Below are positions 31,647 to 35,832 of a stretch of 64,000 bases of DNA, piece by piece (position 1 is the first letter of the stretch; the number at the start of each line of letters is the position of its first letter). Source of the stretch: an uncultured Oscillospiraceae bacterium (GTDB taxonomy: Bacteria > Bacillota > Clostridia > Oscillospirales > Oscillospiraceae); NCBI GenBank assembly GCA_947625355.1, contig CANQOA010000002.1, positions 1 through 64,000 of the forward strand. The letters are read 5' to 3'. A program made the translations under genes and the position numbers. Under the pieces are notes generated by a model. The model saw only the letters and a list, made by a program, of their open reading frames with translations. It searched no databases and was not told the DNA's origin.

Positions 31647-32597
31647 TCAAAAAGGAAACGTCAGGCCCAAATGCTCCGCGATGTCCTTTTCCAGGAGCCG
31701 GCGGTCATGCTCATCGCCGATCACCTTGTAGAGGCAATACGCGTCCCGGTAGTACTCTTTGCATCTGTCCGCATCGCCCCGGCGGAAAAAGCACTCGCCC
31801 ATGAGGTGCAGGAGCAGCGGCAGAAATTGATAGTGCGCGTACTCCACGCAGGCTTTCCGCCCCAGTTCCGCGACCTTGAGCGCGTCGTCATAGCGTCCCA
31901 GCTTATAGAGCTCATGGGCGTAGTTGCAGGCGACCAGGGTCAGCTTTCCGGCATACCGGCTCATCCCATCCGAATAGTGCTTCTGCACATACCGGAGCAG
32001 CTGACGATAGATGTCGGCTGCTTTTGGGGGCTGCCCCATCTGGGAATAGGTGATCGCGATCTGGTTGAGCAGCGTGGTCTCCTCCATGCTGTACAGGCCC
32101 AGGTCGATCTGATCCAGGTCGATATTGGGGACGGTAAGGCGCAAGGCGTCCATCAGCATCTCCAGCCGTTCCTCCGGCGGATAAGGTCCGTCCGGCTTCC
32201 CCAGCGTGACCCGCCGGGCGATGATGTATTGCCGGGCGATCCGGTCGTCAGGCTCTGTGAGCGCTTCCAGTTCCGCCAGCTTTTGCAGTCCCGCTGCTCG
32301 AATACAGGGGCGGTCCTCCGCTGACGCCCGCTCGAACCGGATGACGTCGGCGCGGATCTCGTCCTCCAGGGCCTTGACCTCCGATTCGTGTTTGCTCAGC
32401 AGGGCGTAAAACCGCTCGTCCGGCAGACCCAGCCGCTGGAGAAAGGCGCGGACGCGGCCATAGGAGGGCATCTGCTTCCCGTTTTCCATGCGGGAAACGG
32501 TGATGGGCTCGCATATGCCGGCGCACAAGCGCTCCTGGGTGATAGCCTGCTTCAGCCGCTCCTGCCGGATGTATTCGCCAAGAAACATTTCTCTCAT
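31647..32597 (-). CDS. XRE-type regulator with TPR-like helical repeats (RRNPP-like)
   Basis: A 316-residue protein with an N-terminal XRE helix-turn-helix (residues 5-60, YIRQERLKQAITQERLC, TVSRMENGKQMPS) followed by a long array of helices typical of tetratricopeptide repeats (ITYSQMGQPPKAADIYRQLL, YAHELYKLGRYDDALKVAEL, LMGECFFRRGDADRCKEYY). This layout resembles peptide-sensing PlcR/Rgg-type regulators, though no pheromone ORF is seen next to it. It is divergent from an ABC exporter, the likely target. A perfect 12-bp palindrome lies between them. Confidence 0.8.
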   Translation of the reverse strand: MREMFLGEYIRQERLKQAITQERLCAGICEPITVSRMENGKQMPSYGRVRAFLQRLGLPDERFYALLSKHESEVKALEDEIRADVIRFERASAEDRPCIRAAGLQKLAELEALTEPDDRIARQYIIARRVTLGKPDGPYPPEERLEMLMDALRLTVPNIDLDQIDLGLYSMEETTLLNQIAITYSQMGQPPKAADIYRQLLRYVQKHYSDGMSRYAGKLTLVACNYAHELYKLGRYDDALKVAELGRKACVEYAHYQFLPLLLHLMGECFFRRGDADRCKEYYRDAYCLYKVIGDEHDRRLLEKDIAEHLGLTFPF

Positions 32598-32656
32598 CGG
32601 CGCGCCTCCTTCTCGTCAAGGTGGAAAGTGACTGGGTCCATTATACCATCTCCCCA

Positions 32657-32668
32657 GTCAAATTTGAC
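32657..32668. promoter_or_regulatory. Perfect palindrome GTCAAATTTGAC in the divergent region
   Basis: The 12-bp palindrome lies 60 bases upstream of the regulator start, just upstream of a TATAAT on the minus strand (about 32640-32645). It is a candidate operator for the XRE-TPR regulator. Confidence 0.45.
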
Positions 32669-32766
32669 CTGTCGTTTCGTGTTATTTTCGGGGAACACGG
32701 GACGATATGTACTCCGCTCCCCCGCTGTGGTATCATCACATAGCTGCGACATCGGGAGGGAGAGAA

Positions 32767-34389
32767 ATGAAAACACTGACACCCAAGGGAAAGCGGCTCA
32801 TGGCGCTGGCATGTTTTTTGTACGCCGCCCAGCCCGTCCTTTTCGTATGGATCGCCTATGTGAACGGACACCTGATCGACTGCGTGACAACAGCCGACAT
32901 GGACGGCCTGCTGCGGTCAGCCCTGCTGAGCGCGGGGCTGACCGTGGTGAGCTATGGGATGGACGCGGCCATGATGTCCTCCCGGCTGGCGGTCATCGCC
33001 GACGGGGAGATGGGACTCAAGACCGGGATCGTGGGAAGCCTGCTGCGCCGCCCGCTGCAAAAATTCCGGGAAGAGCCGGACGCCTATTGGCTGAATCTGC
33101 TCACGACCGATGTGGAGCTGTTCCGGCAGTATCTGCGCTATATCCCCCTGCTTTTTACAAGCGCCGCCTCCATCCTCGCGGCCTCGTGGATGCTTCTCCG
33201 GATGCACCCGCTCCTGCTGCTGACCGCCGTGATCGCCGCAGCCATCCCCCTGGCGGTCATGAAGCCCTTTACCAAGCTGGGGACAAAGTGCGCCAACACC
33301 TACTCAAAAGCCGCCGAGGGCTATACCGGCGTGCTCAAGGAGACCATCGAGGGCTGCGAGATCATCCGCGCGGCCGGGGCGGAGAGTGCGTTCCTGGACC
33401 GCTGCGCCGCCGCCGGCAGGTCCCGTCAGCGGGCCTGGTCAAAAAATGAACTCGTGGGGAATATGACGTTCCAGACCCTTTTGTCCGTCGCCTCTCTGGC
33501 CTCCGTCGCCTGCACGGTCCTGGGCGGATGGCTCACCGTCCGGGGCGTTATGACGGTGGGCATGCTGGTCGCCGCCCAGACCTATTTTGTCAATATCTCC
33601 AACTATTTCTCCAACCTCACCGGCTATATCGTCGAGATCCGCGCGTCCAAAAAGATACGGGAAAAGCTGCGGGGCCAGATGGATGTGCCCTGCCCCGGGG
33701 ACAGCGGCCTGCCCCTCGCCCCCCGGCCGGAGGTCGTCTATGATAATGTATCCTTTGCCCTCGGCGGCCGGCAGCTCTACAGCGGGCTGAGCGCGCGCTT
33801 TGCGCCGGGGGGCTGCTACGCGGTGGTCGGGGAGAGCGGCAGCGGAAAATCCACGCTTATCAAGCTGCTGCTCAAGTATTACGACGGCTATCAGGGGACC
33901 ATCTCCCTGGCCGGACAGGACATCCGCCGGCTCTCCGAACGGGAGGTATATAAGCTGGTGGGCGTGGTGGACCAGACGCCCTATCTGTTCAACGCGTCAT
34001 TATATGAGAATATCACCCTGTTCAGCGGCCGGCCCGGACAGGACATGGAGGAATACCGGGCGCTCATACAAAAACTGCATCTGACCGCCCTGGCCGCGCG
34101 GGTGGGGGATGCGCCGCTGGGGGATTTTGGCGACAAGATCTCCGGCGGCGAGCGCCAGCGGATCAACATTGCCCGCGCTCTGCGGCGGGAGCCCAAGATA
34201 CTGGTTTTCGATGAACCCACCACCGGCCTGGACCCGGAGAATGTGCAGATGATCAACGAGTTTATTTTTGCTCTGCAGGGCGTGACGCGCATCGTCGTCT
34301 CCCACGACTGGTCGGAGGAATATCTGGGGCGGTTCGACGGCGTGATAATGATCGGAGGCGGAAAAACGCCGCGTCAGAACAGCATTTGA
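32767..34389 (+). CDS. ABC exporter, fused membrane and ATPase domains
   Basis: A 540-residue half-transporter with six predicted membrane helices in the first 300 residues and a nucleotide-binding domain from about 330. Walker A is GESGSGKST, the signature is ISGGERQR (variant of LSGGQ), Walker B is ILVFDEPTTGLD and the switch histidine is in IVVSHDW. It is a type of exporter used for peptides, lipids or drugs; as a single gene it would work as a homodimer. Start MKTLTPK has GGGAGGGAG before it. Control by the divergent XRE-TPR protein is likely. Confidence 0.88.
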   Translation: MKTLTPKGKRLMALACFLYAAQPVLFVWIAYVNGHLIDCVTTADMDGLLRSALLSAGLTVVSYGMDAAMMSSRLAVIADGEMGLKTGIVGSLLRRPLQKFREEPDAYWLNLLTTDVELFRQYLRYIPLLFTSAASILAASWMLLRMHPLLLLTAVIAAAIPLAVMKPFTKLGTKCANTYSKAAEGYTGVLKETIEGCEIIRAAGAESAFLDRCAAAGRSRQRAWSKNELVGNMTFQTLLSVASLASVACTVLGGWLTVRGVMTVGMLVAAQTYFVNISNYFSNLTGYIVEIRASKKIREKLRGQMDVPCPGDSGLPLAPRPEVVYDNVSFALGGRQLYSGLSARFAPGGCYAVVGESGSGKSTLIKLLLKYYDGYQGTISLAGQDIRRLSEREVYKLVGVVDQTPYLFNASLYENITLFSGRPGQDMEEYRALIQKLHLTALAARVGDAPLGDFGDKISGGERQRINIARALRREPKILVFDEPTTGLDPENVQMINEFIFALQGVTRIVVSHDWSEEYLGRFDGVIMIGGGKTPRQNSI

Positions 34390-34423: not shown

Positions 34424-34452
34424 TTGCGATCCCTGGCCGTTCATGGTATACT
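34424..34452 (+). promoter_or_regulatory. Sigma-A promoter of the leader peptide and MFS gene
   Basis: TTGCGA and TATACT with a 17-bp spacer; transcript start about 34459, just before the leader's ribosome-binding site. Confidence 0.65.
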
Positions 34453-34465
34453 TTTTCTATCCTGT

Positions 34466-34618
34466 GAAAGGAGGGCGCTGCGATGCGGTGGACGCGCGGC
34501 GGCTTGGTCCTGCATTTTCTCGGCTGCGATATGGCCATCCATAGGATCAGTGCGCCCTTTTTTCGGTGACCACGGGTCACGATAGACGGCCGCGCCGATC
34601 CTTTTCTTATTTTCTTCT
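34466..34618 (+). promoter_or_regulatory. Candidate ribosome-mediated attenuator ahead of the MFS gene
   Basis: Arm A GAAAGGAGGGCGC (34466-34478, includes the leader SD) can pair over 13 positions (two G-U) with arm B GCGCCCTTTTTTC (34552-34564). Arm B's upstream part AGGATCAGTGCG (34543-34554) can instead pair with arm C CGCGCCGATCCT (34591-34602), which is followed by TTTTCTTATTTTC, a terminator. A small GTGACC/GGTCAC hairpin sits in the terminator loop. Ribosome stalling near the end of the leader would free the transcript from the terminator. Confidence 0.6.
34483..34569 (+). CDS. 28-residue leader peptide
   Basis: Too short for the ORF track. The ATG has an excellent GAAAGGAGGG eight bases upstream and its own promoter. 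The peptide starts MRWTRGGLVL and ends SAPFFR, and its last codons coincide with the shared arm of two mutually exclusive hairpins. This is the layout of regulatory leader peptides before antibiotic-resistance genes. Its own sequence is not recognised. Confidence 0.6.
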   Translation: MRWTRGGLVLHFLGCDMAIHRISAPFFR

Positions 34619-34647
34619 GATAAAAAAGAAAGGATGGCGCTATTTTT

Positions 34648-35754
34648 ATGCCCAAAAATAAAAAACAGTTTTCTATTTCCAGACAAAAGCGGGCCCTTAT
34701 GGTCCTGGAATGGTCGGTGGGCTTCCGTCCGGCGGGAAGCGTGTGGGTCCTGCTGCTGGCGCTGCGGGGGTTCTCCCTGGTCCAGATCGGCTTCGCGGAG
34801 GCGGTGTTCCATGTGGTGAGCCTGTGCTGCGAGCTGCCCTCGGGGGTCCTGGCGGACGTGCTGGGGCGAAAGCGGACCCTGATCGCCAGCCATGTGATGT
34901 TCGTGCTCTCCACGCTGCTGATGGCGGCCTCCCAAGGGATGGGCGGGGTATGCCTGTCCCTGGCCGCCTCCGCTCTTGGGTACAACCTGGAGTCCGGCAC
35001 GCGGGAGGCCATCACCTATGAGTCCATGCTGCGGGCGGGGCAGGAGTCGGGATATCTGAGATTTTCCTCCCTGCAAAACGGGGTATACCGCTTCAGTGGC
35101 GGCGGCGCGATGCTGCTGGCGGGGGCCACGGTGCTGCTGGGCTGGCGGTGGGCGTACCTGCTGGACACGGGCATCGCCCTCATCGGTCTGGCGGCCGCGC
35201 TGACCGTCACGGAACCTGCGCGCAGCGCCCCCGCGGCAACGCTGCGGACGCTGCCCGCCGCCCTGGCGGAGACCGTCCGGGGCGCCTGGTCGCTCCTCAG
35301 ATCGGACGGCGCCGCCGTCCGGATCATGGTGTTCAACGCCCTGGTGGGGGCATGCGCGACCCTGACGGAGTTTTACCTGCAGGAGAAGGTGGAGGCGGCG
35401 GTGACGGTCCCGGCGCTGCTGGGGCCGGCGCTGTTCGTATTGGGTCTGGGCGGCGCTCTGGCGGGGCTGCTGACAGGCCGGCTGGACCGCCTGTCCTATC
35501 CAAGGACAGCGGCCCTCGCGGGAGGGGGCGTCCTGCTCTGCGTCCTGGCGGCGCGGGGGACATGCCTGCCGGTGCTGATGGCCTCCGGCCTGCTGGCGGG
35601 GCTGCTGGACGACAGTCTCCAGCTGATCAGCGACAAGAGGCTCAACGACCGGTTCCCGTCCGCCCAGCGGGCCACGCTGATCTCCGTCTCGTCCATGATC
35701 TTCTCGGTTTTCATGATACCGCTGTCGCCGCTTTTTGGCGTGTGGTTTACATAA
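34648..35754 (+). CDS. MFS transporter, putative drug efflux
   Basis: A 368-residue major facilitator with about eleven to twelve helices. The motif ELPSGVLADVLGRKRTL between helices 2 and 3 is the MFS motif A, and FRPAGSVWVLLLALRGFSLVQIG/FHVVSLCCE resembles small multidrug or macrolide/tetracycline-type efflux pumps. The leader-peptide attenuator upstream suggests induction by a ribosome-targeting compound. The substrate is not known. Confidence 0.8.
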   Translation: MPKNKKQFSISRQKRALMVLEWSVGFRPAGSVWVLLLALRGFSLVQIGFAEAVFHVVSLCCELPSGVLADVLGRKRTLIASHVMFVLSTLLMAASQGMGGVCLSLAASALGYNLESGTREAITYESMLRAGQESGYLRFSSLQNGVYRFSGGGAMLLAGATVLLGWRWAYLLDTGIALIGLAAALTVTEPARSAPAATLRTLPAALAETVRGAWSLLRSDGAAVRIMVFNALVGACATLTEFYLQEKVEAAVTVPALLGPALFVLGLGGALAGLLTGRLDRLSYPRTAALAGGGVLLCVLAARGTCLPVLMASGLLAGLLDDSLQLISDKRLNDRFPSAQRATLISVSSMIFSVFMIPLSPLFGVWFT

Positions 35755-35803: not shown

Positions 35804-35832
35804 TTTACAAACCATCCCAATGCGCGTATAAT
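35804..35832 (+). promoter_or_regulatory. Sigma-A promoter of the nadE operon
   Basis: TTTACA and a perfect TATAAT with a 17-bp spacer, 37 bases before the nadE start. Confidence 0.7.

Follow-up and report, generated by a model that had tools for sequence, protein, structure and literature searches.

An MFS transporter gene of an uncultured Oscillospiraceae bacterium is probably preceded by a leader-peptide attenuator, as an earlier note on this DNA had proposed, and the conservation and covariation of its parts support this strongly. The attenuator probably acts in cis and is controlled by the ribosome, with the nascent peptide as its sensor: the pairing of arms 3 and 4 (3:4) would keep the transporter gene off, and the pairing of arms 2 and 3 (2:3), formed after a stall in the leader, would turn it on. 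Attenuators of this kind, with a leader peptide ahead of a resistance or MFS efflux gene, are already known from ermC, vmlR and mef(E)/mel (the last in PMC4335068). The window is the whole stretch of 64,000 nucleotides that was analysed (GCA_947625355.1, contig CANQOA010000002.1, positions 1 to 64,000, forward strand). The features of the locus are the following.

34424 to 34452, plus strand: sigma-A-type, promoter-like sequence TTGCGA-17 bp-TATACT with an extended TG, read from the sequence.
34466 to 34478, plus strand: arm 1, which is the SD of the leader ORF, GAAAGGAGGGCGC; pairs with 34552-34564.
34483 to 34569, plus strand: leader ORF of 28 codons, ATG to TGA, MRWTRGGLVLHFLGCDMAIHRISAPFFR, called from the sequence and from in-frame indels in relatives.
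34483 to 34524, plus strand: conserved peptide core, W3 to G14 (G13 in deep relatives), a candidate arrest sequence.
34519 to 34530, plus strand: predicted stall codons, P site at about codons 13-16, from folding with the upstream RNA masked.
34544 to 34564, plus strand: arm 2; 34552-34564 pairs with arm 1, 34544-34554 with arm 3.
34566 to 34580, plus strand: small hairpin GTGAC...GTCAC over the leader stop codon, within the 2:3 loop.
34591 to 34604, plus strand: arm 3, whose partner is arm 2 (34544-34554, ON) or arm 4 (34629-34640, OFF).
34623 to 34640, plus strand: arm 4, with the MFS SD (AAAGGA), the 3' strand of the 3:4 hairpin.
34643 to 34647, plus strand: run of five T (T5) between the 3:4 hairpin and the MFS ATG, which makes 3:4 terminator-like.
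34648 to 35754, plus strand: regulated gene, a 368-aa MFS transporter (P0001), putative drug exporter, Pfam MFS_1.

The promoter and the ribosome-binding site that the earlier note placed ahead of the 28-codon ORF are both recognisable, the SD being a strong one, and both are conserved in about 30 relatives. Transcription is expected to start at about 34459. In the relatives the promoter resembles TTGACA-17-TATAAT, and beyond the -35 box, on its upstream side, the sequences diverge. In the window clade about 13 nt separate the MFS SD from the ATG, which counts against the proposed switch.

The pairing between the SD region and the end of the ORF (34466-34478 with 34552-34564) covers exactly the 13 positions that had been claimed, two of them G-U, and the overlapping segment 34544-34554 does pair with a downstream arm, 34591-34601, which is followed by TTTTCTTATTTTCTT. 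The note's design of three mutually exclusive arms was thus right about these pairings but missed a fourth arm, which holds the MFS SD and is followed by T5 and the ATG. Indeed, arm 3 (34592-34604) can also pair with 34629-34640, that is, with the MFS SD, after which comes TATTTTT-ATG. The 2:3 hairpin had been taken for a terminator; this assignment has to be reversed, since the inhibitory hairpin is 3:4, which contains the SD and abuts the T-run and the start codon, and 2:3 is its competitor, the ON form. Because 3:4 holds the MFS SD and competes with 2:3, the logic is of the ermC/vmlR type, with 1:2 + 3:4 as the OFF state and 2:3 as the ON state. The whole leader folds more stably than 196 of 200 dinucleotide shuffles (z = -2.67). 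The two SD arms, 34466-34478 and 34628-34640, are near-identical 13-mers (GAAAGGAGGGCGC and GAAAGGATGGCGC), so that arm 2 could in principle pair with either of them. This 2:4 alternative was rejected as energetically poor (-65.4 vs -77.7).

The polarity first proposed, in which 2:3 and the T-rich tract form a terminator, 1:2 is the antiterminator, and stalling or initiation on the leader turns the gene off, is very unlikely. The 2:3 hairpin of the window clade is GC-rich at its base and is followed by TTTTCTTATTTTCTT, as this polarity would have it, but distant members (e.g., L094 and L095) have no T-rich tract behind arm 3, and they keep the SD in arm 4 and the T-run before the ATG. Moreover, when 2:3 is not formed, arm 3 forms 3:4 and hides the SD, so the supposed antiterminator state would still be OFF.

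With 3:4 as the inhibitory hairpin, its end in T5 just before the ATG means that it may also terminate transcription. T5 is invariant in A1, and a run of at least five T directly precedes the MFS ATG in 47 of 58 members. This run may be part of a terminator or, equally, an unstructured spacer. Separate GC-rich intrinsic terminators are found in L074, L075, L078 and L079; the window has 3:4 and T5. The terminator of L074, L075 and L078 lies between arms 2 and 3, hence arm 3 cannot be a co-transcriptional antiterminator in these three. L079 and L083 (genus g1) represent a second, diverged type of leader and MFS gene in the window's own genus, in which W3 is lost (MPGYGYIIFTSSG...) and a separate strong terminator lies between arms 3 and 4. 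We take translation attenuation to be primary; transcription attenuation would likely be a second layer, which has been demonstrated for vmlR (PMC9226507). The merger of SD hairpin, T-run and start codon is unusual.

A scan of bacterial genomes with the MFS protein returned 34 related loci, nearly all from rabbit-gut MAGs ('Lapin') labelled Oscillospiraceae, Lachnospiraceae, Eisenbergiella or Clostridia. The 29 loci with enough upstream DNA, plus L011, make up the close-clade alignment. A lack of conservation of the arms in relatives had been named as what would speak against the attenuator; promoter, ORF and arms are all kept in these about 30 close relatives. The differences in ORF length among relatives are multiples of three. 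L031 has lost the usual start and keeps an in-frame ATG, and L052 has ATT where the ATG is expected. In this alignment, 99.1% of cells are paired for 2:3 with its inner hairpin, 96.4% for 1:2 + 3:4, with little covariation, and 98.7% for the small stop-codon hairpin, which shows one compensatory change from G-C to C-G. For 2:3, compensatory changes were found against both shuffle and slid-partner controls, which answers the earlier call for a covariation check. RNAalifold extends 1:2 across the leader start codon and codons 2-5.

The flanking genes are not shared. The ABC gene upstream in the window is absent at the relatives' loci, except for one 30% ABC match in L049, and the downstream NAD-synthase-like gene is absent from all of them. 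Since no flanking gene is common to the relatives, promoter, leader and pump travel together. They seem to form a mobile single-gene unit, whose context differs from that of the window in every relative examined (L025-L055); no mobile element was seen beside the units in these loci. One genome (Lapin-001 bin13) carries two copies of the promoter-leader-MFS unit, L027 and L036.

The neighbouring DNA of the window contains, on the minus strand, an XRE/Rgg-like regulator (31647-32597; the regulator call was made by eye), which has a helix-turn-helix and a long, helical C-terminal region, and, divergent from it on the plus strand, an ABC exporter whose permease and ATPase are fused (32767-34386). 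The two (31647-34386) are possibly a peptide-signalled export unit. A near-consensus promoter, TTTACA-17-TATAAT (35804-35832), precedes the downstream NAD-synthase-like gene.

More distant copies were searched for with two covariance models: R1, built on the leader, searched 401 genomes from the family and 391 from the class, with matches of about 18-22 bits taken as chance, and R2, which spans SD to arm 2, was run on samples of the class, the genus g206, the family f52 and the phylum. R2 detects the leader in 60 of 85 g206 genomes (35 of the 46 of good quality) and in 12 of 120 genomes of f52; in a phylum sample of 200, only the window's genome has it. Together the models give about 45 further copies in three families, nearly all directly upstream of a homologous MFS gene, so that the leader is tightly linked to one MFS family. 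The exceptions are L097 and L109, in which the start codon and the gene are gone. L076 shows no MFS gene in the fetched downstream stretch, and the filter found no leader ORF in the weak match L154. A transposase-like ORF lies downstream in L097, whose ATG is gone. In L145 the MFS gene keeps its first codons and the sequence breaks after about 13 codons.

In these distant members the arms have changed wholesale and still pair. The window has GGATCAGTGCG:CGCGCCGATCC, and pairing is kept despite the sequence changes in L079 (GGGATCACTGC:GCAGTGATCCC), L074 (GGGACAAG:CTTGTCCC) and L116 (GGGAGAAGTCTG:CAGATTCTTCTCC). Arms 1 and 2 also co-vary in deep relatives, with GGAGC/GCTC in L111 and GGGCACAG/CTGTGCCC in L115. 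When arms were re-paired at random among 20 diverse members, none of 5000 pairings matched the natural arms for 1:2, 2:3 or 3:4, and among 12 deep members the numbers out of 5000 that did so were 9, 0 and 0; these counts are not strict probabilities, because the members share ancestry and pairing itself served to locate the arms. The covariation of both mutually exclusive pairings of arm 3 across families argues against a constitutive structure or simple translational coupling, to which we give hardly any credence. Coupling also fits poorly with the distance from the end of the leader ORF to the MFS start, which is 78 nt in the window and larger where the ORF stops at codon 18.

The leader peptide is conserved as well. 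The distant leaders have the signature M-x-W-x4-[I/V/L]-x4-G (W3, G13), and the fuller consensus of the 43 distinct leaders of g206 and f52 is M-x-W-[I/K]-T-x-N-[I/V/L]-[Q/H]-L-x-[N/K]-G. G13 is present in all 43, with four codons used, and position 8 is I, V or L in all 43, with Ile, Val and Leu codons used. N7 occurs in 39 (AAT and AAC about equally frequent) and L10 in 40. W3 is also found in 43 of 43, partly by construction, since the leader filter required TGG at codon 3 and a Gly within residues 12-15; the other positions were not constrained in this way. The window clade has one residue more (W3...G14). Five leaders have an ORF that ends at codon 18 and does not reach arm 2. This suggests that the terminal SAPFF codons of the window are probably kept as RNA, and the first 13-14 residues as peptide. 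The RNA arms by themselves would not require the degree of conservation seen in the peptide core.

The earlier reader had not recognised this peptide, and the searches agree: Rfam gives no match, plasmid records none at E up to 10, and phages three weak ones (best E about 1). The leader DNA has no match in plasmids or phages. No Rfam family reaches its gathering score in the window; the best in the region is Flavo-1, with 17.6 bits vs 42. A 21-nt arm-2 pattern has four matches in viral contigs, about the estimated chance number, and no leader was present in the contexts inspected. The viral contigs L059 (8982-9002) and L062 (9-29) carry GGGATAAGTGCGCCCTTTTTTC, identical to an arm-2 variant, with no recognisable leader, probably by chance. 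The macrolide stall motifs of the Erm and Mef leaders (IFVI or MRLR type) are absent from the leader peptides. A run of regulatory codons, as in trp- or his-type attenuators, is likewise absent: there is one Trp codon only, and the gene encodes an MFS pump. Trp attenuation was ruled out on account of this single codon. No description of the peptide or of the leader was found in the open-licence literature. Given this and the absence of an Rfam match, the leader was filed as a new family of a known kind; the switch type is known, while the peptide family and its ligand appear to be new.

The effect of a stalled ribosome was modelled with a mask that reaches 14 nt beyond the P-site codon and makes all upstream RNA unavailable, which presupposes a trailing ribosome on arm 1. 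In the free RNA of the window, 3:4 is slightly favoured (-77.7 vs -76.6 kcal/mol). A stall at codon 5 favours 2:3 (-52.0 vs -45.5 kcal/mol), as does one at codon 10 (-49.0 vs -42.7 kcal/mol), and a stall at codon 20 brings 3:4 back as the minimum-energy fold. The computed switch therefore depends on position: stalls up to about codon 15-16 lead to 2:3, and those from codon 17 on to 3:4. Similarly, over the 55 members folded (L097, L119 and L146 were left out because the start codon was missing or the arms could not be called reliably), the probability of 2:3 (P23) exceeds that of 3:4 (P34) in 52 with a stall at codon 14, and P34 exceeds P23 in all 55 with a stall at codon 22. The free RNA favours 3:4 in 43 of the 55 and does not in 12; the nine window-type members favour 2:3 on average when free. 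The preference of only about 1 kcal/mol in the window and the 12 members that do not favour free 3:4 imply that the co-transcriptional order of events must help. Even in the ON fold, the hairpin at the MFS SD can retain its AT-rich part, which is why the computed full accessibility of this SD is low throughout, a point against the model; the partner probabilities of arm 3 were used as read-out in place of this accessibility.

The upper limit of the stall window is set by the place of arm 2, and its coincidence with the end of the conserved peptide argues for a programmed stall. Outside the window clade, the preference for the ON state is highest at codons 14-15. Since arm 1 lies outside the reach of a ribosome at codon 14, the model has to suppose that a second, trailing one keeps this arm occupied. 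A general sensor of translation stress without peptide specificity, for which slowing anywhere in the leader would suffice, start codon included, would fit the window clade, in which modelled stalls at all positions between codon 1 and about codon 15 favour 2:3; the E. coli uORF toiL indeed senses several antibiotic classes at different codons (PMC12121999). We regard such a sensor as unlikely, though not negligibly so, because early stalls are weaker in most other members (mean P23 of 0.39-0.50 at codon 1 vs 0.70-0.81 at codon 14) and because conservation of the peptide core exceeds the needs of the arms.

In the preferred, peptide-dependent mechanism, without a stalled ribosome, or with the ribosome at or past arm 2, arm 3 would be free to pair with arm 4 and the MFS SD would be hidden. 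To switch the gene on, a ribosome would stall in the conserved first part of the leader, with its P site at about codons 13-16 and W3 about 10-12 residues inside the exit tunnel. The stall would bar arm 1 from pairing and free arm 2, which would take arm 3, so that arm 4 would be released and the pump made. The cue would likely be a ribosome-targeting antibiotic exported by the pump; that the attenuation is antibiotic-induced is inferred.

The sequence of the pump makes a drug exporter likely. P0001 matches Pfam MFS_1 with 63.8 bits against a cut-off of 33.4. It is not one of the named resistance pumps HP1165, TetA(P) or Tet(40), since it scores 21-23 bits against NCBIfam cut-offs of 700-800. 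Among the below-cut-off NCBIfam matches of 16 family members, HP1165 appears in 16, TetA(P) in 10 and Tet(40) in four; the pump of L111 reaches 29-37 bits to named NCBIfam MFS models, also below cut-off. The matches to solved structures are weak and include the efflux protein EfpA. The MFS protein has no match in viral contigs. An MFS homologue on a Lactococcus plasmid is preceded by an AraC regulator, and no leader is annotated there.

TnaC needs a Trp located 12 residues from its stall codon. That the peptide senses a metabolite or an amino acid (e.g., free tryptophan, as TnaC does) and that the MFS protein exports this compound is quite unlikely, even though the predicted stall codon is about 10-12 residues away from W3: the peptide is unlike TnaC except for W3, and the nearest named models of the transporter are drug exporters, though far below cut-off. 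The likeness to TnaC (an arrest peptide treated in PMC3902921 and PMC8429421) is a conserved Trp that would sit deep in the tunnel, about as far from the stall codon, which is a predicted one here; there is no other sequence similarity, the output differs, and the arrest is a candidate one here.

The attenuator of ermC (leader peptide ErmCL, Staphylococcus) is similar in having a leader peptide and four arms, with 1:2 + 3:4 as the OFF state, the downstream SD in 3:4, and 2:3 as the ON state after a leader stall. The ermC-type traits found here are a leader ORF with its own SD and promoter (read from the DNA), an arm 3 that pairs with arm 2 or with the SD arm, and a pairing set by the stall position (computed). 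Arm 1 of ermC is part of the leader ORF; here it is the leader's own SD, the peptide is unrelated, the gene encodes an MFS pump and not a methylase, and the SD hairpin abuts the T-run and the ATG.

In vmlR of Bacillus subtilis, stalling on the uORF prevents an anti-antiterminator, and transcription and translation attenuation are combined, with an SD-sequestering hairpin (PMC9226507). The locus would share with it control by a uORF stall and a hairpin that hides the SD, here predicted from sequence and folding. The uORF of vmlR is only Met-Ile-Asn, in contrast with the 28 codons of this leader, its terminator (SL-3) and SD hairpin (SL-4) are separate and seem merged here, and its gene is an ABC-F instead of an MFS (PMC9226507). 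The mef(E)/mel system of Streptococcus (PMC4335068) also has a leader peptide and an attenuator before an MFS-type macrolide efflux gene, but its peptide is MTASMRLR, with no similarity noticed to this leader, and its rho-independent terminator is separate. Finally, the uORF of toiL controls access to the downstream SD, as proposed here, and responds to ribosome-targeting drugs, but its arms, sequence and target gene are different, and Rho-dependent termination follows repression (PMC12121999).

A bolder reading, which we consider somewhat less likely than not, is that the leaders form a new arrest-peptide family, M-x-W-x4-[I/V/L]-x4-G, that senses one specific small molecule in the exit tunnel and, by way of a merged terminator/SD hairpin, controls a family of efflux pumps in gut Clostridia that has yet to be characterised. 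If so, the ligand could be an unrecognised natural antibiotic or gut metabolite. Arrest peptides report the small molecules that bacteria meet, and how the exit tunnel reads peptide and ligand jointly. The invariant landmarks (W3, G13), the predicted stall window and the single pump family lend themselves to a direct test, and once the ligand is found, the substrate of the pump would probably follow. Many uncultured gut Clostridia would then have an inducible, probably intrinsic efflux, where annotation now misses resistance.
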